From assembly GCF_020623625.1 (NCBI RefSeq), contig NC_060200.1, positions 2,190,001 through 2,254,000 of the forward strand: a DNA stretch of 64,000 bases, in the 5' to 3' direction. Below the pieces are notes generated by a model. It was not told the DNA's origin. It ran no database searches and saw only the letters and a list, made by a program, of their open reading frames with translations. Origin of the DNA: Saccharomycodes ludwigii (lineage: Eukaryota; Ascomycota; Saccharomycetes; Saccharomycodales; Saccharomycodaceae). The first letter of the stretch is position 1. Every line of letters begins with the position of its first letter. Below, one piece after another: positions 834 to 49,915 of this stretch. Both the position numbers and the translations under genes were made by a program.

Positions 834-3149
834 TCACCTTTTATTGAATGTAATCATTTTACCCTTTACCGGCTTTGCTCTCTTTTTGACTTCTTTTGGT
901 CCAATGATTTCTTTGGTATAAGGATCAAATTTTATCTTCTTATTACCTTTAGTATCCCGTACCCTACCCTTTGATAAATTCATAACTTTTTCGCTATTTT
1001 CATAATCAATAGCTTCAACTGACTCTGATACATCCTTTTCTGCAGATACGCGGGGTGTTATGGATTGTAATTTTCTCTTTTTACTCTTTAACACAACAAT
1101 TTCATCTTTATCGGGTGTCGACATATAAGAATCCTTGCTTTCGTTAGTTTGGGAGTTATTGGGATTTTCTGCTTCTTTTTCCTCATTAGTTCGGTCAAAT
1201 CCAGATGTTCTATCTACTCCTGTCGTGGTGAGTGTGATCTCAGACAACGGACCAATTGTTTTTCGGTTTTCTTCTTCTAAGCGCTTAATAATGTCTTTTT
1301 TCCTTTCATTCAATTTTTTTTCATCAGCAACTAAAACTTCACCATCCTCTTGGTAAGAAACAACCCGATTACCCCAATCTCCTTCAAAAAATCTAGAATG
1401 AAACTGCTTAGGATTGATAGCAATAGATATATTTCCATCTTTTTGTAGCTTACCTTGTAAAACCTCAAATTGTTGGTTCATATATTTGACTTGTGCTGGA
1501 CTCACCAGTTTCAAAACTTCATCATCATCAGCATCTTCTTTATTTACAACCTTAAATTGATTCTTAGTCCCATTCTGCGTGCTGGCTAGTACTTCGCATG
1601 CGTTTTTTATAATATTGGCTATTATTTTGGAATTACTTCTAACGAAGTCTGTAACATTATTACTAATCGACATTACACCGGCAGGATCAGTTGGCTTCAT
1701 GGACACAAGCAATGCCAACAATTGATTGGGCATTATATACCTAGGTGACTCATCTTCTCTTCTAGCCACAGCGTCTCTCCATTCATAAAGCTTTATCAAC
1801 AATAATTCTGAGTCTAACGGAATATTATAGTTATACATAAGGGATTTCCAAGGCGCAATTTTTTCTTGTGTGCAATACACTTCAGACGATAAGTTGGATG
1901 GTCTGTACTTGACATATTCAAATCTTCTTTTGGCAACAAGGCGGGATTCGTGTAGGACATCTGCCAACTTATTCTTGGTTATCAACATATTTCTTAATTG
2001 ATCAAAAATATACAACAGGAAATGTGTATCTGACCTTGCATATGCAAACATTGCATCCGTTAAAGGTCTAATCCTCCAGTCCGCTAACTGGTACTTTTTG
2101 GATGTTTTAAAATTCGCAAATTTTTCCAATAAATAGGCCAAACTATGTTTTGGAAAACCCAAAGCCCTACTAGCGTGATAAGTGTCAAATAAACTAACAA
2201 CATATAATCCCAAATCTCTTTGCAACCAAATAATGTCCATAAAGGCACCATGGAAAACCTTGGTAATTTCTGGATTAGCAAATACTGTATTTAATTTTTG
2301 TAAATGATCCCTTAATTTTATGGTATCAACAATCCAATCTTTCTCTCTGGAACTTATTTGCATTAAACACACTATTCCATAGTATGATCTTAAATCATGA
2401 TGCTCCAAATCAACTGCAATTTCAGTTTGAGTTTGCAATTCCTTGATCATCAGTTCCAACTCATCAACAGAATCCACCCATGTAGCACCAGTCTTGTCCC
2501 AGTCTTGAGGCCTTATAATTTCCAACTGTTGAAGTACCTTTGTATTGTACGGTTGATTGTCAATTTCTTCTTCATATGGATTAGCGTAATGCATAGGAAT
2601 ACCTTCTTCCGCATCTATTATTTGAGTAGATTTTTCAAGTGACTTTAATGCAAAAGGTTTATCGGTCAATAAGGGTTTAAAAGGATGTGATTCTGTATTA
2701 TCAATGGGTGTCTTAAATTCCAATTGGGGTTTCCCCATTTTTTTCCTTGGATTCCCTGTAATTTTGCCGACTTTAATATTGTCATCCAGATATTGAAAAG
2801 TGTTTTTGCCCTTGCCATAAGTACTTCCATTATCGACATTCCTAGCTCTTCTAAACTCATCAATATAACGATCTGACTTTTCTAAAACAAAATCCATAAC
2901 ATCAGTTATGTTATTCCAGGATTCGGCCAAATTATCTTTATTGTCGTTGATACGCTCATTATTTTCATTAATAGCCAAAATAACATCATTGATTAGGGAC
3001 AATACTTTTGTTCTAGCAGAATCAATTTGAGCACTGGAACTCGTGTCTATACTAGTATTGAATCCAATATCCAAGGAGGAAACAGCAGTTGTTGCTCGAA
3101 TGGTATTCATGAGCTTTGATAATACTTCGTCTTGTATTTTTTGCGACAT
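834..3149 (-). CDS. RRP6: RRP6, nuclear exosome 3'-5' exoribonuclease
   Basis: Catalytic subunit of the nuclear exosome. It trims and degrades 5.8S rRNA, snoRNA, snRNA and faulty nuclear transcripts, and in yeast it works with Rrp47. The 771-residue protein is close to the roughly 730 of S. cerevisiae. An N-terminal PMC2NT-type helical region spans about 1-110. The DEDD-Y exonuclease domain spans about 210-400, with visible catalytic residues D247 and E249 (in EIAVDLEHH), D305 (GAFMDIIW), and Y370 and D374 (YARSD). An HRDC domain follows at about 435-520, and the C-terminus is lysine-rich, as expected for nuclear localisation. The start is the first ATG. In S. cerevisiae RRP6 lies next to CEN15 with PHO80 on the other side, and the same neighbour and orientation are seen here across the 3150-6007 gap. 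The call is firm. Confidence 0.97.
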   Translation of the reverse strand: MSQKIQDEVLSKLMNTIRATTAVSSLDIGFNTSIDTSSSAQIDSARTKVLSLINDVILAINENNERINDNKDNLAESWNNITDVMDFVLEKSDRYIDEFRRARNVDNGSTYGKGKNTFQYLDDNIKVGKITGNPRKKMGKPQLEFKTPIDNTESHPFKPLLTDKPFALKSLEKSTQIIDAEEGIPMHYANPYEEEIDNQPYNTKVLQQLEIIRPQDWDKTGATWVDSVDELELMIKELQTQTEIAVDLEHHDLRSYYGIVCLMQISSREKDWIVDTIKLRDHLQKLNTVFANPEITKVFHGAFMDIIWLQRDLGLYVVSLFDTYHASRALGFPKHSLAYLLEKFANFKTSKKYQLADWRIRPLTDAMFAYARSDTHFLLYIFDQLRNMLITKNKLADVLHESRLVAKRRFEYVKYRPSNLSSEVYCTQEKIAPWKSLMYNYNIPLDSELLLIKLYEWRDAVARREDESPRYIMPNQLLALLVSMKPTDPAGVMSISNNVTDFVRSNSKIIANIIKNACEVLASTQNGTKNQFKVVNKEDADDDEVLKLVSPAQVKYMNQQFEVLQGKLQKDGNISIAINPKQFHSRFFEGDWGNRVVSYQEDGEVLVADEKKLNERKKDIIKRLEEENRKTIGPLSEITLTTTGVDRTSGFDRTNEEKEAENPNNSQTNESKDSYMSTPDKDEIVVLKSKKRKLQSITPRVSAEKDVSESVEAIDYENSEKVMNLSKGRVRDTKGNKKIKFDPYTKEIIGPKEVKKRAKPVKGKMITFNKR

Positions 3150-4077
3150 TATTCTCTTTTACCTTTACTTACTTTAATTTTCAGAAATTCTAGCGTTAAA
3201 ATTTCAATTTATTTGTAATAGATTTATCAATTATAATAAATTAATAACTTAGAATAAAGTAAACCGAGAACCTACTTTTTTCTATTTTTTTTTTTTTTTT
3301 TTTTTTTTACCTTTGTTTTTACTTATAGTCTTGTATTAAGAAATGTTTCTGAGAGTTGGAGTAAATGCAAAAATAAAACTTTTTTTTTTTTTTTTTTTTG
3401 GTCAATAAAAATGATGCTGTTTCTAATAGCTGAGGAAATAGTGCGCAAAAATACAAGCACAGAGATAAATAAATCGAAAAAAAAAAAAAAAAAAAAAAAG
3501 AAAAAAAAAGAAACGTTTATTATATAAGACTTAAGATATGGATCAACCAACGAGAATTTGATGAACCCACCATTAGTATTACCATTATATGGAAATCTAT
3601 AAAATCCTAACAACTTCGTAATATGTAAAGTTGATTAAAAAACAACGATATTGTACAATTTTTTCTTTTTTTTTTTGTTTCACTTTTAGCTATTTTAAGA
3701 TTGCCTTTATAAAAACCAGACATTAACCACGGTTGTTTGTAATATTGATATCACTACTGTAAGATACCTTTTTTTTTTTTTTTTTTTTTTAGCTCTTTAT
3801 TGTAATTCGATATTTTCATTTCTTCTTCGATGCACCGAGGGCTATTGTTATAACATATTTACACTCCAATCGAACAATAAAATTTTTTCTTTGATTATCA
3901 ATTATCTAGATATACAAACAATCATAAAAGAGCTACGGAGTACTCTTGGCAATATTTACGTCTTAAGAAACATTAAAAAAAATTACTATAGTGTGATAAT
4001 TCGATTAGGATAAAAGTGCTTATCTATATTAAAAGATATTTTACATAATGTTAATTATTCTACCAATTTGTTTGGTT

Positions 4078-4320
4078 TGTTGAAGAAATATAAACATGTT
4101 TCTATTTTCTCTATGTAATAACTATATATCATATGATTGATTATTCACAATGTTATCAATACATATGTACTACAACTTATTTAAGTTGTGTCTAAATAAT
4201 ATAGGAAATCCTTTCACATAGGCTAAAAGGATCAAGGTGGTATATTCGTATTACTAGATAATACTATATATTATGAATAACTTTATATTGAAGGATTAGA
4301 TGCATTATCTGCCCAATGCA
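4078..4320 (+). mobile_element. Old solo LTR relic of a Ty5-like element
   Basis: About 243 bp begin TGTTGA and align along their length with the 244-bp LTR of the whole element at 44307-49586, most clearly over the 3' half (for example CACATAGGCTAAAAG against TACATAAGCTAAAAG). The position that corresponds to the element's start codon inside the LTR lies at the same offset. No internal region follows and no target duplication is evident. It is strongly diverged from the young copy, so it is an old solo LTR, perhaps of a related subfamily. Confidence 0.7.
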
Positions 4321-4353
4321 CAAAATAAAGTAGACTAATTAAATACAAAATCA

Positions 4354-4366
4354 ACACCCGTACATT
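4354..4366 (+). promoter_or_regulatory. Rap1-like site
   Basis: ACACCCGTACATT fits the Rap1 consensus ACACCCRYACAYM at all but the last position. No gene start is nearby. The same motif, on the other strand, lies in the Ty5-like LTR (44321-44334), so this may be LTR debris rather than a functioning host site. Confidence 0.35.
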
Positions 4367-4420
4367 TATATATAAGCATTAATTATTTTTATATAATAAA
4401 CGTTAACACAAAATATATCT

Positions 4421-4617
4421 TCGCAAATATTCTTTGTTTTTATAATAATTAAATAAACTACTTTCTTTAATATTTAATAAATTATTATTCTATTATATTT
4501 GTATAATATAATTTATTTTTATTATTTATGTTATGATTGATGATATTGTTAATTATATATAAAAAGTATAAACTACTTTTATTTAAATTTTATTAAATAA
4601 AAATAAACATTTTGCGA
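4421..4617. other. Candidate point-centromere core: AT-rich block with inverted 7-mers
   Basis: Positions 4441-4610 hold only 14 G/C in 170 bases (about 92% AT). The block is flanked by TCGCAAA (4421-4427) and its exact reverse complement TTTGCGA (4611-4617). It lies between RRP6 and PHO80, the S. cerevisiae CEN15 flanking genes. Length and composition resemble the long CDEII of non-Saccharomyces yeasts. On the minus strand the left flank reads TATTTGCGAAGAT, one base off the TTTCCGAA core of CDEIII. The other flank only weakly resembles CDEI. Position is supported by synteny; the element assignment is inference. Confidence 0.35.
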
Positions 4618-5859
4618 CACCAATTATTGGTTTTAAACAAAAGAGTTTTTTTAGTATTCCTATTAAAAAAATATACCTGCGTATAATTTCATTAATTACT
4701 GCATATCGTATGTTGAATTATTTTTTTTTATACTTACGTATATTATATTAGTAGTCTCTTTATATAAGCTATATATGGTCTGATGTAGATTTATGTTAAT
4801 CTATCTAATATATATTACGAATAATCCGGTCAGTTTCACTTTCTTTATTTTTATGTGGCACCAAACTTTAATTAGATCCTGTGTAGTGGTTAACTTTCCT
4901 TATAAAGGAAGATACAATGTTAAAGTTAAAAAATATTACGATGAATTTGAGCCTTTTTTTTTTTTTCTTTTTTTTTTTGATTAATAAAAAGTAACAAGTA
5001 TTTTTACATAGTTATTTACAAATAAATGAGACTCTTGTTTACATTGAGAGCAAAGTTAACAGAGTATTATATGTTTATTATTATAATTAAAAATCACTTT
5101 TTTTTTTTTCCATAGTTTTTCATGAGCAATTGTATTGCTGTATGATAAAGAAAAAAGATTCACTTTATAATGAGGTGTCACCATCACACACTATCTCCCT
5201 GGCCCAGTACTTTAATAGTTTTTAGCTAATGGTCAATGATAAATCTTTAAAGTACTAGGATGAACAGAATTTTCAATTCATATATAAATGTTTTAATTGA
5301 AAATTAATTTATTATTTTTGTTGAACAAACACACTTTAAATCCTATTGTAATGAACCTGTTTTTTTATTAAAATTTTTTTTTTTTTTTTTTTTTTGGAAA
5401 AAAATATTTGTATGCAATTGCCCTGCGTACTATTTCCCAATCATTAAGGCTGATAATTTTTTGTGTTATGAACAAGTTAATATATTATTAGCTCTAAGTA
5501 ATGGAACTGATATTTTCACATCAAGATGATTAATTGCTGTTTAATACGTTCTAAGGTTTTCTTAACATATTAGATAGGGCATCATGGGACATATAACATG
5601 GGGGGTTTTTGTCTTTTGTAAAAATAACCCATTATTCGGCTCATCCAAAATATTTAAGAGAAACATTTCAAGTTATAAGTTGCTATTTATTTATATTTAG
5701 GTAACTTGCTAAAAGTCACACCTATAACGATTGTATTATATTATACGCCGGTCCCATATAAAATATGTATTTACATAAACCCTTAAAAAAAAATGAATAT
5801 ATTAAGCCATTACTTTCCACCTCAATCATAAAATCACCGAAACAATTAGTTTAACTTTA

Positions 5860-5897
<38 letters not shown>

Positions 5898-6007
5898 AAA
5901 AAAGAAAGAAAGAAAGGAAAGAAGCCAAAAGCAAAATAGATAATGATATAATCCAAGAAACCTAAAAAGACATTAAATTATACACTAACTAAAAATTCTT
6001 AAAGCCA

Positions 6008-7294
6008 CTAACTTATACTATTAGTATCATTATTATTAATAGAATTAGTCCGAGTTTCAGTATAACTAGTAAAAGGAGTATTCACGCTTAATCTAGTTGG
6101 CGCTATAGTTTCCGCTGATATTTTATATTGGTTATTATCGCTATCACTGTCATTAGAAATATCAAGGCTAACACCATTATTAGAAGTGCCAGTGCTTGTA
6201 GGATTACTGTTCGGTTTTTTCAAGGGATGATATAGCCCTTTATAAGTATCTGAAGTGCAGGAAAAATTATTAGTGAGATCACCATTATTATGCTTAATAT
6301 TTTCTTGTTTAATATTATTTTCAGTGCTAGCTGTGGAATATATTTGTGAAACAGAAGAAATGGAAGAGAGCGAGAAAAATTCCTCATTTTCACTAGTCTC
6401 ACAACATTCACCAGGATGGTGATGATTGTGGTCATGGTATGCCCTTTTCCTACTGTTGTTATTAGAACTATTTGTGTTTTCAGAAGTGTCTGTCATCAGT
6501 GAATAGCGTTGTCGGATAGGGGGTGACAAAAGTATTGTGTAGCTCTTTTTATGCGATTTATCTTTACAGGTGTTATAGTTGCCGACAACTTGTATCATTC
6601 TTGTATAGTATGTAGTTAAAATATTGTAGCCCTGGTTGGCCAAAGACAGCTGATCTTTAGGTGGATATATATTAAATTTCTGCTGCATTATTTCTTGTTT
6701 ACACAGGTACAGATTATAATCCCTAGGTATAATACGAAAGTTTATTCTATTTAAAAACTCTTCCTCTAGAATATTTAATTCTGAATACTGGACGCCACCA
6801 ACTTTTGCGTAGTGATTGTTTGTAAAAAATAAATCGCATAAACCTTTGCTGGCTACAGTTGTTGCTGCCAAAAGAAACCTATGGACAGTTAAGGAATTAA
6901 CATTAAATACAGGGTAAACCGAAGTTAGCAAATCAATATAATAAACTGTGGTTAATAACACAGAATGATCTAGAGATGAATACTTTGTGAGCCGTACTAA
7001 ATAATCATAAACCGATATAGGGGGTGGTATTTTAGAATGAAATCTTGTTAGTGTTTTATTTTCTTCATTATCATCTTTCCCATCAATAGTACAACCATTT
7101 TCCATTTTTCTTTTGCTTTTGTTTTTTTTTGTATTTTCTTGTTCTAATTTCCCATCGTTAATGAGTATGACCGACGTTATCATTCTAGATATTAGAATAA
7201 CTAAATCTTGTATAGGACATTGCATGTAATTTTGTGAGAGTGATACAAGCGAAACCTTTTCCTCTTGAGAGTTTTCCGTATTTGTATTATCCAT
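6008..7294 (-). CDS. PHO80: PHO80, Pho85 cyclin of phosphate signalling
   Basis: Cyclin that pairs with the kinase Pho85 to phosphorylate Pho4 when phosphate is plentiful, which keeps the PHO genes off. The cyclin region, about residues 28-195, matches S. cerevisiae Pho80 closely, for example TRFHSKIPPPISVYDYLVRL, the stretch HRFLLAATTVASKGLCD, and HYAKVGGVQ. The protein has 428 residues against about 293 in S. cerevisiae. The extra length is a Lys-rich insert near 50-80 and a Ser/Asn-rich tail after about 260. The first ATG is used. Its neighbours are RRP6 across the putative centromere and YPT7 upstream. A CACGTG core lies upstream at 7817-7822. The call is firm; the function of the tail is unknown. 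Confidence 0.95.
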   Translation of the reverse strand: MDNTNTENSQEEKVSLVSLSQNYMQCPIQDLVILISRMITSVILINDGKLEQENTKKNKSKRKMENGCTIDGKDDNEENKTLTRFHSKIPPPISVYDYLVRLTKYSSLDHSVLLTTVYYIDLLTSVYPVFNVNSLTVHRFLLAATTVASKGLCDLFFTNNHYAKVGGVQYSELNILEEEFLNRINFRIIPRDYNLYLCKQEIMQQKFNIYPPKDQLSLANQGYNILTTYYTRMIQVVGNYNTCKDKSHKKSYTILLSPPIRQRYSLMTDTSENTNSSNNNSRKRAYHDHNHHHPGECCETSENEEFFSLSSISSVSQIYSTASTENNIKQENIKHNNGDLTNNFSCTSDTYKGLYHPLKKPNSNPTSTGTSNNGVSLDISNDSDSDNNQYKISAETIAPTRLSVNTPFTSYTETRTNSINNNDTNSIS

Positions 7295-8735: not shown

Positions 8736-9467
8736 TTAACACTGACAAGAACTTGGTCCGTTATCTAATTGGATATTGATAGCATCGTTAAAATCGTCTT
8801 CGAACATATCGTCTTCTAGTTGATTTTGTTGTAAGGCACTCCTAGCTATTTCTTCAAATGCTATATCAACGTTTATTGAGCTTTTAGCACTAGTAAAGAA
8901 TAAAGGAATGTCACCTAAACCTTTGGCTAAATCTTGAGCTTGTCTGGCGCTAACTACTTTTTTGGCTTCATCCACATCAATTTTATTACCCAATATAACA
9001 AAGGGGAAAGTTTCTGGGGAACTAACATTTGCATGTAATAAAAACTCGTCTCTCCACACCTTAATGTTTTCAAATGATTTTAAATTGGTAACGTCATATA
9101 CTAGAACACAACAATCTGCACCACGATAAAAGGCAACACCTAATGATTGAAATCTTTCCTGTCCTGCAGTATCCCATACTTGTAATGTAGCAGTTTTACT
9201 GCCGTTGCTAGTATTGTTATTATGTTGAGTACGGCTATTATCATTATTAAAATTATTATTGCTGTTATTATTGCTATTGCTGTTGTTGACATGACTGCTG
9301 CTATCGTCTAATGTAACTTCTTTTGTTAAAAAATCAGCACCTATGGTAGCTTTATATTGCTGTGAATATTTACCATTAACATACCTTTGCATAAGAGATG
9401 TTTTACCAACACCTGAGTCACCTAATATAATGACTTTTAAAATATTTTTCTTTCTTCCACCAGACAT
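8736..9467 (-). CDS. YPT7: YPT7, Rab7-type vacuolar GTPase
   Basis: Small GTPase of late endosomes and the vacuole. It recruits HOPS for homotypic vacuole fusion and late endosome-vacuole fusion. The P-loop GDSGVGKT is at about 16-23, switch I with ATIGADF at about 40-46, switch [11 protein letters not shown] at about 98-106, the base motif NKID at about 155-160, and the C-terminus is CQC for double geranylgeranylation. The protein has 243 residues against about 208 in S. cerevisiae. The surplus is an Asn/Ser-rich insert at about 55-91 between switch I and the WDTAGQE strand, where Rab proteins normally have a short turn. The first ATG is used. In S. cerevisiae YPT7 borders CEN13 and VRL1 is its neighbour; here VRL1 lies 10 kb away. 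Confidence 0.97.
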
Positions 9468-44306: not shown

Positions 44307-44550
44307 TGTTGAGAAAATAAATGTACGGGTGTGTATATTTATTTTCTATCTGCCTGTTCGTCATATGCATGGCTGCTTCTAAATACTATCTTTCCTTTTA
44401 TAATATTATATTAATTAAGTTATACGTAATTTATATAAGAAGTCCCTTTTACATAAGCTAAAAGAGACTAAGGTGTATATTCATATTAACAGGTATATTA
44501 CATAATATGAATCATTCTATTGATCGGTTAGATCAGCTATTCGCTCAACA
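44307..44550 (+). repeat. Left LTR of the Ty5-like element
   Basis: 244 bp bounded by the perfect inverted repeat TGTTGAG...CTCAACA. By eye it is identical to the right LTR at 49343-49586. It contains a Rap1-like motif (44321-44334) and the start of the coding region (44507), as in other Ty elements whose gag begins inside the LTR. Confidence 0.95.
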
Positions 44551-47500
44551 GGTTATGAGCCCTGAGGCAATACCCGAAGTACTCTACAAATTAAAAGGAA
44601 ATTCCAACTATAAAAAATGGTGTGACGAATTTACTTATATGTTAACAGCCTTTAACCCATATATTGTGAGTTTCTTGCAAACTGGTCTATTAAACATACC
44701 AGACATTAATAATGCTGATACATTTGTTACCACTAGAATGCTTACCACGGCTAGTCGAATTGCAGACATGGCCATCAGAAAATCTCTCGATGAAAATACA
44801 TTAGATACATATACAGCTGCCACAAATGCTTTTCGGGGCACAAATTATTATCTAAGAACCAAGGCCGGCTGGGATAGCTTGAATGAGATGTATTCCTCCG
44901 GTACTTTGAGATCCTACTATGATGCCATGAGCAAGAAGCCTACACCTTATACCTTAACTTCTTCCATTTCGACATGTACTGAAGTTATAAATCATCTAGT
45001 CGAATTAGATGACTTGAGAATGACAAACTCAGTTTTATACCAAAGTGCCTTATTTTTAGATTATTGTCCAGCAATTGCTGATATGGTGATTGATAAGTAT
45101 GGTGATTCCACAGATGTCACTGTTAATCAGATTAAATTGTATTTGACTAATAAGTCAGCAACAAGAAAGAATAAAGACAATGCCATAAATCCATTATCTT
45201 CTGCTTTTCTTTCTCAATCTTCAACCCTCAATACATCACAGAAAATCCAAAATGGTGATGCTTTTACTAAGGTCTCAGCCAAAAATCAAAGATATAACAG
45301 AGAAACAAAGTATAGGTGCAAGTTATGCGACAAAGATCATAAAACTATCAATTGTCCCGATATTGAGAAATGTAGAGAAATATTACAAAAAACCAAAAGT
45401 AGCGCATTCTTCTCAAACGGAAATTCTAAATCCCGAAAATGTGATAATTTTGTCAAATCTGAACCTATTTGGTGTTTAGATAGTGGATGTTCAGCACATA
45501 TGACTGATAATAGGAGTTGTTTTACAGAACTACTACCATGTAACACAACAGTTAATGGTATTGGTGGAAAGAGATTAACGGCAGAAGGAATAGGAACTGT
45601 TAATATAAATGGAACTGTCTTCAGGGATGTTTTATATGTACCTGATCTTCAGAACAATCTAATTTCTGTTAGGAAAATTAGGAGTGAAGGTTATGACATT
45701 GTATTCAAGAAAGACGGTACCGTCTGGCTACATGGAAAAGATGTGTTACGTCAGGTTGGTATTGAAACTAAGGGCGGTATTTATTCTTGGTGTGGTGATT
45801 CCTTTGCTTTCTGCTCTCTTGCTGCGGACAACCTATCGTTTGGCCCAGTCTCACAAAAGATTGCAGCTTCCTCATCAAGTGCACCAATCTGGCATGCTAA
45901 ATTAGGACACCCCAGTGTTAAATATTATAATGCCGCTGCCCGGATATTTGGAAAACCAATTTTGAACTCTGAGAAGTATTCTAAATGCCCAACCTGTCAA
46001 TTGTCAAAAGGTATCCATGACAAGTCGACATCTTCAACCACTACGTATAAACAACCACTGTCTGTCATCATGGTTGATATCTGTGGTGGCTTTCGATATA
46101 AAGAACAAACTGAAGCTAGATATTTTCTAACAATAGTTGATGCTTTCTCCCGATATATAACTGTTATATCCTTAAAGCGCAAATCTGATGCCACATCCTC
46201 ATTGATTACATGGATAACCCAAATTGAGAATTTCTTTGCTGCAAATGGTTACAATTATCGACTTGGTACTATTAGATCTGATCATGGTGGTGAATTTGAC
46301 AACAATAATTTTCATGAATATCTTCAAAAGAAAGGGGTGAAACATGAATTCACCGTATCACATTCCAGTTATCAAAATGGAATTGCTGAGCGTACACATC
46401 GTACTATCGAAGAACGAATGAGAGCATTGATGATTGGAGGAAAGGTACCACCCTATTTGTGGACAGAGGCACTACAAACTTCTGTCTATATTATCAACAG
46501 GACACCTCGTCCATTTAACAATAACAAAATACCATACTGTATCTGGTTTAATAAATCTCCCAAATCTATTAATATAGAACATCTACATGTATTTGGATGT
46601 GCTGCGTATGTTACATTACCAGAGTCTAATCGTGATGGAAAATTGATGCCAAACTCTATCCTTGGTGTTTTTGTTGGTTATGATAGCTCTCACAAAGCCT
46701 ATAGGATTTATCATATTGATAGTGCTAAGATTTTTGTTGCAGCTAATAGAGATATTGTTTTTGATGATACTATGTTTCCATTTGCCTACTCATCTGACTC
46801 GTCAAAAGCCTATAATTTTGCTGATTCAAAAGTTACAGGACCCCCTAAGTATCCATCTATTGGATCAACCCAAACTAATTCATCTATTAATCCTAGTATG
46901 GCTAGTAAAGGAACTTACCTACCACCAATGACATCTATGATAAACAATATCAATACCTCATCTTTATCGTCTGACTCAGACGGGGATATAATTCTACCAG
47001 ATGATAAAAAGACCTTTGACTCATTACAGAATAACAAAATTGCTAATACAACCAATTCTGACTTAGTTCCCTTAGCAACAAACTCAATTATTCATCGAAT
47101 GCCTGATGATTCCCCAATGCCGTACATCGGACATCAGCCTGTTGAAAGTACTCAAACTGGGTTAGATACCATTCTCCCTCCTAGGCAATCATGTATTGCT
47201 GCAAATCCTATCAAACAATTATCAGTTCTCCCAACCAATTATGAAACTGGTGAACATACCTCTAAAGAAAAATTAGCTTCCTTGGACAGCCTTGTTCCCT
47301 TCTCAAACAGTTCATCCTTGCCTGCTACAGAATCATCTGAATCCATTCCTTCTCCTGATTTTTCAAAACTATTACCAGACTCGCAGAAATTACTAACCAC
47401 TTCAGTTCAACCACTTGAAGTTGGTGAAGCAACAGCTCCTTTCCTTGGATCGTCATCAGTGGCTCCCTTTTTCATTCCCCATGGTGGGAATACACCACTT

Positions 47501-49303
47501 ACCTCTCAGCTTTTGGATCTTGCTTTACCATCTACTTCTATATCTTCCTCACCATCAACATCAGAAAATTCCTCTTCGACTGTACCATCACTAAATGAAT
47601 TACCATTATTACCAGCTTCAACTGGAACAACAGATTCCTTAGTCCATACATCGCCTGACGTTTTTGATCAGACTGAAACCAACGCTACTGAGGGTTATTC
47701 ATCCACTGCTATTAAACGTTCCCATACAGCAGCATTTCCTGAGCACTCTAATATTGCTTTATCTGCTATGGCCTATTTTGGAACCCATGATGATAAAATA
47801 CCACAAAACTTTAGTGCTGCATTAAAAGGTCCAAATGGTAAAAAATGGAAAAGTGCGTGTCAACAGGAATTAAATTCGCTTGTTGAAAATCACACGTTTG
47901 ATTTGGTTTCTCCTCCATCCGACACTAAAACTATAGGTTCTCGTTGGGTCTTTACCATTAAGGATTCAGGGTTGTACAAAGCCCGTTTAGTTGCCCAAGG
48001 TTTTACACAGCGTGCTGGTATTGATTACAATGAAACATTTGCTCCTGTTATTCGTTATAGCAGCGTTCGTTTGTTTCTTGCTGTTGCTGCGTCTCGTGGT
48101 TTCCTAATCCACCAAATGGATGTAACCACGGCATTTCTAAATGCACCTATTGATACACCCATATATGTCCGTCCTCCTGTTGGTTATCCACATGCTCCTG
48201 GCATGGTGTGGAAATTGAATAAAAGCTTATATGGTTTGAAACAAGCGCCTCTTCTTTGGAACCAAACTATAGCTGGAAAATTAGCCCATATAGGCTTTAC
48301 AAAACATCCATCTGAGCATGGGTTGTTTGTTTGTTGCAATAACTCCGATGAAACTTTTGTTGCACTCTATGTTGATGATTTATTGATTGCCGGTAGCTCT
48401 TCTGCTAATGTTTCTAAAGTCAAGCATTACTTGTCCGAGTGTTTCCAGATGAAAGATCTTGGACCTGCTTCAAAATTTCTTGGTATGAACATAACGCAAT
48501 CTCCACAAGGAATTTCGGTCTCTCTATCCGATTATATTTCAAAATTGCTTGTTGAATTTGGACCTCCATTTAAACCCATTCATACTCCACTAGATAAACA
48601 TGCCGATTTATTTTCTTCAATTGAACCTCCAACTTCCGATATCACTAGATTTCAAAGCATGGTGGGAAAACTGCTATTTGCTTCGAATACTGTGAGATAT
48701 GATATTGCTTTTGCTGCTTCATTTTTATCTCGGTTTCTCAAATCGCCTACAAATGTGCATCTGAAAGCTGCTAGAAGAGTTGTTGACTATCTAATTACTA
48801 CTAAAGATTTTAGTCTCACTTATAAAAAAGGTATTCCGTCTCATCTTACTGTCTACAGTGATGCATCCTATGCCGATGATAAGACGGATATGCATTCTAC
48901 CTGTGGATACATCACAGTTTACAGTGGTGCACCCATTACGTGGAGTTCCAAGAAAATTAAAGTAATGTGCTTATCTTCTACTGATGCAGAATATATATCC
49001 ATGAGTGAAGCGTGTAAAGAAGCATATTGGTTAACTGACATATTTAATGGCCTGAACATTGAAATACCATCTATTGATTTGATGGCTGATAACACATCTG
49101 CAATTGCACTTGCTAAACATCCAACACAACACAACCGTACAAAACACATTAACGTAAAATATCACCACATAAGAGAAGCCGTTGAAACCAAAAAGGTAAA
49201 CATTCAATTTTTAAAAACAACAGAACAACCAGCTGATATGATGACCAAACCTCTCTCAAGAGCTTTACACGAAAGATGCCGTGACACCTTTATTACTACT
49301 TAA
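44507..49303 (+). CDS. Gag-Pol polyprotein frame of the Ty5-like element
   Basis: One continuous frame of 1598 codons (Ty5 has about 1600), with parts in copia order: a gag-like region and zinc knuckle (about 1-300), an aspartic protease (about 325), an integrase with zinc-binding N-terminus and catalytic core (about 460-760), a long Ser/Thr/Pro-rich linker (about 765-1080), reverse transcriptase (about 1130-1370) and RNase H (about 1440-1598). The protease-integrase-RT order marks the Ty1/copia group. No frameshift separates gag and pol, unlike Ty1. Confidence 0.93.
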   Translation: MNHSIDRLDQLFAQQVMSPEAIPEVLYKLKGNSNYKKWCDEFTYMLTAFNPYIVSFLQTGLLNIPDINNADTFVTTRMLTTASRIADMAIRKSLDENTLDTYTAATNAFRGTNYYLRTKAGWDSLNEMYSSGTLRSYYDAMSKKPTPYTLTSSISTCTEVINHLVELDDLRMTNSVLYQSALFLDYCPAIADMVIDKYGDSTDVTVNQIKLYLTNKSATRKNKDNAINPLSSAFLSQSSTLNTSQKIQNGDAFTKVSAKNQRYNRETKYRCKLCDKDHKTINCPDIEKCREILQKTKSSAFFSNGNSKSRKCDNFVKSEPIWCLDSGCSAHMTDNRSCFTELLPCNTTVNGIGGKRLTAEGIGTVNINGTVFRDVLYVPDLQNNLISVRKIRSEGYDIVFKKDGTVWLHGKDVLRQVGIETKGGIYSWCGDSFAFCSLAADNLSFGPVSQKIAASSSSAPIWHAKLGHPSVKYYNAAARIFGKPILNSEKYSKCPTCQLSKGIHDKSTSSTTTYKQPLSVIMVDICGGFRYKEQTEARYFLTIVDAFSRYITVISLKRKSDATSSLITWITQIENFFAANGYNYRLGTIRSDHGGEFDNNNFHEYLQKKGVKHEFTVSHSSYQNGIAERTHRTIEERMRALMIGGKVPPYLWTEALQTSVYIINRTPRPFNNNKIPYCIWFNKSPKSINIEHLHVFGCAAYVTLPESNRDGKLMPNSILGVFVGYDSSHKAYRIYHIDSAKIFVAANRDIVFDDTMFPFAYSSDSSKAYNFADSKVTGPPKYPSIGSTQTNSSINPSMASKGTYLPPMTSMINNINTSSLSSDSDGDIILPDDKKTFDSLQNNKIANTTNSDLVPLATNSIIHRMPDDSPMPYIGHQPVESTQTGLDTILPPRQSCIAANPIKQLSVLPTNYETGEHTSKEKLASLDSLVPFSNSSSLPATESSESIPSPDFSKLLPDSQKLLTTSVQPLEVGEATAPFLGSSSVAPFFIPHGGNTPLTSQLLDLALPSTSISSSPSTSENSSSTVPSLNELPLLPASTGTTDSLVHTSPDVFDQTETNATEGYSSTAIKRSHTAAFPEHSNIALSAMAYFGTHDDKIPQNFSAALKGPNGKKWKSACQQELNSLVENHTFDLVSPPSDTKTIGSRWVFTIKDSGLYKARLVAQGFTQRAGIDYNETFAPVIRYSSVRLFLAVAASRGFLIHQMDVTTAFLNAPIDTPIYVRPPVGYPHAPGMVWKLNKSLYGLKQAPLLWNQTIAGKLAHIGFTKHPSEHGLFVCCNNSDETFVALYVDDLLIAGSSSANVSKVKHYLSECFQMKDLGPASKFLGMNITQSPQGISVSLSDYISKLLVEFGPPFKPIHTPLDKHADLFSSIEPPTSDITRFQSMVGKLLFASNTVRYDIAFAASFLSRFLKSPTNVHLKAARRVVDYLITTKDFSLTYKKGIPSHLTVYSDASYADDKTDMHSTCGYITVYSGAPITWSSKKIKVMCLSSTDAEYISMSEACKEAYWLTDIFNGLNIEIPSIDLMADNTSAIALAKHPTQHNRTKHINVKYHHIREAVETKKVNIQFLKTTEQPADMMTKPLSRALHERCRDTFITT
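44551..44564 (+). other. Primer-binding site matching the initiator tRNA-Met anticodon arm
   Basis: GGTTATGAGCCCTG directly after the left LTR is the exact reverse complement of the anticodon stem-loop part of yeast initiator tRNA-Met (CAGGGCUCAUAACC). Priming from an internally cut half-tRNA is known for Ty5 and copia, while Ty1 uses the tRNA 3' end. Confidence 0.85.
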
Positions 49304-49342
49304 TACTATACAAAGACTATGATAATATTAAGTAAGGGAGAG

Positions 49343-49586
49343 TGTTGAGAAAATAAATGTACGGGTGTGTATATTTATTTTCTATCTGCCTGTTCGTCAT
49401 ATGCATGGCTGCTTCTAAATACTATCTTTCCTTTTATAATATTATATTAATTAAGTTATACGTAATTTATATAAGAAGTCCCTTTTACATAAGCTAAAAG
49501 AGACTAAGGTGTATATTCATATTAACAGGTATATTACATAATATGAATCATTCTATTGATCGGTTAGATCAGCTATTCGCTCAACA
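49343..49586 (+). repeat. Right LTR of the Ty5-like element
   Basis: 244 bp, identical by eye to the left LTR, with the purine tract just before it and the GAAAA duplication just after. Confidence 0.95.
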
Positions 49587-49915
49587 GAAAAGCCCATGAA
49601 AAAAATTATTTTATTTTATTTCTTTTTTTTTTTTTTTTTTTTTTAATGTGCATTATTCATCTAAAATTAAACGCGGATTTTGTGTTCACAATAAAGAATT
49701 TGACCGGTTTTTTATTTCAAGAATTCCGGTGTGATTCGGACAAAAGAATATTATCTCATTTTCAAGTTTAATTTAGTTCCCATTTTTGAATCGTTCTCTA
49801 CTAAAGCCATGCATACTTTTTAATAAAGTTAGTTTTACTTTTACTTTTTTTTTTTTCTTTTTTAAAATAGGCTATGAAAATAGAACTGCTACATCTGAAT
49901 ACCAACTACCACGCA
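49587..49915. other. HAT2 upstream region
   Basis: About 330 bp between the right LTR and HAT2, with a T run near 49623-49644 and another near 49845-49862. It is all that remains of the original KEL3-HAT2 spacer on this side. Confidence 0.5.

Follow-up and report, generated by a model that had tools for sequence, protein, structure and literature searches.

Does the long gene-free interval between RRP6 and PHO80 in Saccharomycodes ludwigii hold the centromere of its chromosome, and is there a sequence within it that could define one? We examined this in a window of 64,000 nucleotides (C1:2190001–2254000) from an assembly that totals 12,500,424 bases in eight contigs; the S. ludwigii assembly is described as 12.5 Mb in seven chromosomal scaffolds (Papaioannou et al., 2021; PMC8567612). 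ORF matches to solved chains confirm the identities that an earlier note on this DNA had given to RRP6, PHO80 and YPT7 (Table 1), and SCODWIG_03787 is 100% identical, over the full length, to the PHO80 protein of the window. The YPT7 frame contains an in-frame, Asn/Ser-rich insert of about 35 residues between conserved parts of the GTPase; the full set of intron signals was not seen for this insert in 8736–9467.

The gap is gene-free and exactly where the note had placed it, with a length of 2858 bp and a GC content of 23%. It is the largest of the 23 gaps that separate the 24 main ORFs of the window (next 1666 bp, median 534 bp; six of the 30 ORFs, each overlapping a larger one, were dropped from this count). 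The minus strand reads YPT7, PHO80, the gap and then RRP6, with all three genes co-directional, in agreement with the flanks of CEN15 and CEN13 in S. cerevisiae (YOL001W, YOR001W and YML001W). The Eremothecium homologues of PHO80 carry the names FACR001C, AaceriACR001C and HCR001C, under a naming practice in which the number-001 genes adjoin the centromere. The relative order and orientation of RRP6 and PHO80, with YPT7 beside PHO80, are thus kept as had been claimed, and the proposal that CEN13 and CEN15 descend from one ancestral centromere fits both this gene order and the known whole-genome duplication (Gordon et al., 2011; PMC3141009). As for the main suggestion, a probable centromere in this interval, it is supported by an element that occurs once per large contig and is missing from the HAT1 site; judging from these sequences, this S. 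ludwigii chromosome very probably has its centromere in the RRP6–PHO80 gap.

The element emerged from a genome-wide search for the families of genes that neighbour centromeres in S. cerevisiae. The search returned a trehalase on C3, dynamin genes on both C5 and C6 (with further dynamin matches elsewhere), a DOM34-type gene on C4 (a second eRF1-type gene being on C3), ERG26 as the best 3Beta_HSD match on C2, and HAT1 on C1. Four candidate gaps have in common the 13-mer CCCGTACATTTAT, which occurs 14 times in the genome and on all seven large contigs (reversed control, 0); it belongs to a Ty5-like LTR and was rejected as a centromere motif. Next to this 13-mer, another pair of sequences kept recurring: box pairs were noticed by eye on C1, C4 and C2, and a first scan showed a single box each time on C3, C5 and C6. 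The search rule, TCGCA followed by TGCGA at a distance of 100–330 bp with an interval at least 78% AT, yields exactly seven matches in the window and 16 further loci (224 kb in all), one per large contig and all 185–197 bp long, and none in the 10 non-centromeric loci among those 16. Both C7 boxes, and on C3, C5 and C6 the partner box, come from the rule alone and are therefore the more independent cases. The C3, C6 and C7 loci were fetched on account of the LTR 13-mer. A genome scan with a CDEI-CDEIII pattern gave no matches, which carries no information, the 10-base gap of that pattern being one that fits no real centromere.

Table 1. Features of the window around the RRP6–PHO80 gap (window coordinates).
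Feature	Position	Strand	Details
RRP6	834–3149	-	771-aa ORF; best match among solved chains, E 1.5e-194
RRP6–PHO80 intergenic gap with the proposed centromere	3150–6007		2858 bp, 23% GC
Short decayed LTR fragment	4013–4062		78% over 50 bp
Decayed Ty5-like LTR fragment	4177–4301		76% identity, 127 aligned columns
13-mer CCCGTACATTTAT	4357–4369	+	Also near one Ty5-like LTR end; ~35 bp from the element
Proposed centromere element (AT-rich core between two inverted boxes)	4404–4634		231 bp
Left box TGCGAAGATATATTTTGTGTTA (minus-strand reading)	4404–4425	-	Matrix rank 1 of 147,916
AT-rich core	4426–4612		187 bp, 91.4% AT
Right box TGCGACACCAATTATTGGTTTT	4613–4634	+	Matrix rank 3 of 147,916; lowest score of the 14 boxes
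PHO80	6008–7294	-	428-aa ORF; best match among solved chains, E 6e-69
YPT7	8736–9467	-	243-aa ORF; best match among solved chains, E 1.7e-94

At both ends of all seven elements lies a 22-bp box close to TGCGAACACAAAATNTGTGTTT, the two being inverted and pointing outwards. The cores between them measure 175–187 bp and are 90.0–93.4% AT, figures to be read with the minimum of 78% AT that is built into the search rule. The invariance of TGCGA carries no weight because the rule demands it; beyond TGCGA, the shared box positions include A6 (13 of 14 boxes) and GTT towards the outer end. Positions 5–21 form an imperfect 17-bp dyad with a 5-nt spacer, which scores 136 matches over the 14 boxes vs 73.7 ± 9.1 after shuffling (none of 5000 shuffles reached 136); the register was picked by eye after looking. 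Left and right boxes resemble each other in a mean of 15.0 of 22 positions within an element and 15.0–15.2 between elements; therefore, there are no distinct left and right box types.

Not one AT-rich pair appeared in 100 dinucleotide (block) shuffles, against 7 observed, and pairs of any AT content averaged 0.39 per shuffle, again against 7. When 60 permutations of TCGCA were tried, TCGCA itself gave 7 matches, CGCAT gave 1 and the rest none. With leave-one-contig-out matrices, ranked within the fetched loci of each contig, a contig's own boxes take ranks 1 and 2 on six of the seven contigs and ranks 1 and 3 on C1 (147,916 positions in its fetched loci, scored with a matrix from the six other contigs), where the right box is outscored by one other site of the window, 49669–49690. 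Genome-wide, a pattern fitted to the seven elements finds eight places, of which seven are the elements themselves and the eighth lies within the VPS1 frame; since this pattern was fitted post hoc and some loci were chosen by the 13-mer, the scan tests uniqueness and not discovery. The reversed control of the two-box pattern has 7 strand hits genome-wide, so that the pattern alone is not fully specific and is completed by the AT-rich core and the position. The single box, allowing up to one mismatch, has 36 genome-wide matches vs 22 for its reversed control and was rejected as an unspecific genome-wide marker.

The positions of the elements can be compared with gene order through neighbours named by Pfam family. 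On all seven large contigs, genes that flank centromeres in S. cerevisiae are close to the element. Besides the C1 site, these are ERG26, EFM5 and TFC3 on C2; NTH (trehalase), YRB1 and RMD1 on C3; RER1, DOM34, CDC10 (septin) and MRPL32 (L32) on C4; VPS1 and PAP1 on C5; and IRC22, SGN1, NOP16, PMI40, WBP1 and INP51 on C7. On C6, DNM1, PRE3 and SFI1 lie beyond a Ty5-like copy and the other flank is a POP4-type gene, which is not known as a centromere neighbour in S. cerevisiae; because of this flank, the C6 site is considered rearranged on one side. The interval from DOM34 to MRPL32 is the one designated Anc_CEN1 by Hession et al. (2025; PMC12711049).

These data make it highly likely, as far as sequence can tell, that contig C1 of S. 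ludwigii has its centromere at 4404–4634 and that this centromere is sequence-defined and symmetric. One could instead suppose that only gene order has been conserved and that the C1 centromere now lies elsewhere, for instance at HAT1. Indeed, C1 bears two ancestral sites, RRP6–PHO80 and HAT1, the latter being the eighth ancestral centromere site, linked with CEN16; therefore, one of the two must be silent. At HAT1, however, the next ORF on the 3′ side is only 180 bp away, neither the rule applied to the 10-kb fetched locus nor the genome-wide pattern finds an element, and the sole C1 match of the genome-wide scan falls in the window. We thus rejected HAT1 as the C1 centromere and regard a displaced centromere as very improbable. 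If the HAT1 site is Anc_CEN8, the missing element agrees with a published report that no centromere of Saccharomycodales is located at Anc_CEN8 (Hession et al., 2025; PMC12711049). Even less credible, to a degree that leaves it hardly any room, is a classical CDEI-CDEII-CDEIII point centromere as in Saccharomyces, in which CDEI reads NNCAVBTG and CDEIII has an invariant CCGAA (Gordon et al., 2011; PMC3141009). The AT-rich core, the short size and the presence of CBF3 genes would suit it, and in a looser context of 500 bp CCGAA is found near three of the seven elements and an E-box near one; the window gap itself contains two CCGAA, each about 1 kb or more from the element. On the other hand, none of the seven elements has NNCAVBTG at either end (searched over about 60 bp on the outer side and 20 bp on the inner side), and CCGAA is absent within 60 bp of all seven. 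The classical form is, for these elements, already largely refuted.

A further reading keeps the centromere in the same gap but has it defined epigenetically or by a cluster of Ty5-like LTRs, the twin boxes being incidental or relics. The centromeres of H. menglaensis are reported to be featureless (Hession et al., 2025; PMC12711049), and Ty5-like LTR matches do crowd at the elements: among the 27 listed genome-wide, 22 are no more than 10 kb from an element and 26 no more than 45 kb. These counts are lower bounds, and the decayed fragments of the window escaped that search. The remaining listed match is 1.17 Mb from the element, on C3. On six contigs the nearest listed match is 28–125 bp from the element; on C1 it is 39.7 kb off, yet a decayed fragment lies about 100 bp from the element. 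The ten non-centromeric loci scanned gave no LTR match at E 1e-3. Against this reading, the LTR remains in the C1 gap have decayed while boxes and core are nonetheless kept, and core length varies only between 175 and 187 bp over the seven contigs. Moreover, the one intact LTR that was tested holds no convincing box (best score 3.4 bits, equalled in 107 of 500 shuffles; real boxes 20–29 bits), and a derivation of the box from the Ty5-like LTR is not supported by this comparison. We therefore consider an epigenetic or LTR-defined centromere unlikely. Homing to centromeres accounts for the clustering of LTRs no less well than an LTR origin does. The same alternative is weighed by Hession et al. 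(2025; PMC12711049), who cite Haase et al. (doi 10.1038/s41586-025-10092-0) for a Ty5-like LTR origin of proto-point centromeres. The window also contains a complete Ty5-like retrotransposon (44307–49586), about 40 kb from the centromere element, with two identical 244-bp LTRs, 5-bp GAAAA flanks and a 1598-aa frame at 44507–49303. The box-like 22-mer at 49669–49690, second-best of the 147,916 positions in the fetched C1 loci, lies 82 bp past the LTR at 49343–49586 of this off-centromere copy; this could be a hint that a box-bound protein guides insertion, or a chance match.

How could a sequence-defined, symmetric element work? The genome encodes a member of the Cep3 family (E 4.9e-92, 595-aa ORF), whose Cys-rich N-terminus is read as a zinc cluster, and one of the Ndc10 family, with the main match on C3 (E 1.6e-48). 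A second, weaker NDC10_II match (E 1.7e-8) is found at C2:1812367–1812696 in a 1091-aa frame. A CBF3-type complex, consisting of a Cep3 zinc-cluster dimer with Ndc10, would bind each self-palindromic box; the bound boxes would position a single Cse4 nucleosome, wrapped by the core, on which the kinetochore would be assembled. As a tentative model, which we regard as possible but less probable than not, the site would be a symmetric point centromere with one Cse4 nucleosome between two inverted self-palindromic CBF3-type boxes and could plausibly have preceded the lopsided form of Saccharomyces, in which CDEIII would descend from one box and CDEI would have taken the place of the other; Ty5-like elements would home to the complex bound at the boxes.

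With this element, a guess from synteny becomes a testable stretch of 231 bp, and the twin-box sequence rule holds for every one of the seven large contigs of this yeast, whose order is sister to the Saccharomyces group. Should the symmetric layout prove functional, it would represent an intermediate from which the asymmetric Saccharomyces centromere could have arisen. The sites also lend themselves to asking whether Ty5-like elements create centromeres or only home to them. The location is in effect known, since putative point centromeres have already been reported for every S. ludwigii chromosome on the basis of synteny and a motif (Papaioannou et al., 2021; PMC8567612). That set very probably includes the RRP6–PHO80 site. 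No published description of the twin-box layout in S. ludwigii was found in a search mostly at the level of paper listings, and neither ludwigii nor Saccharomycodes is mentioned in the main texts of Hession et al. (2025; PMC12711049) and PMC12925627; this is weak evidence that the layout is new to the literature.

Among known systems, Hanseniaspora uvarum belongs to the same order and is reported to have its seven centromeres at ancestral locations (Hession et al., 2025; PMC12711049), as the proposed elements of S. ludwigii would be. Its motif is described as 21 bp long with two AACGCA halves inverted 5 nt apart, and 8 of the 10 best motif matches are at centromeres (PMC12711049); therefore, two copies may be present in one or more of the seven. 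For the S. ludwigii box, a 17-bp dyad with a 5-nt spacer is supported. AACGCA was not found within 500 bp of any of the seven S. ludwigii elements. A further difference is that H. uvarum is assigned one motif per centromere, under a zero-or-one setting (PMC12711049), while in S. ludwigii two boxes bracket an AT-rich core. The resemblance to the Saccharomycetaceae point centromere lies in the ancestral positions, the short AT-rich core of narrow length range and the CBF3 genes (Gordon et al., 2011; PMC3141009). The S. ludwigii core conforms on all seven contigs (175–187 bp, 90.0–93.4% AT) to CDEII, which is 76–98% AT and of near-constant length within a species. The two differ in that S. ludwigii has symmetric boxes in place of CDEI and CDEIII.
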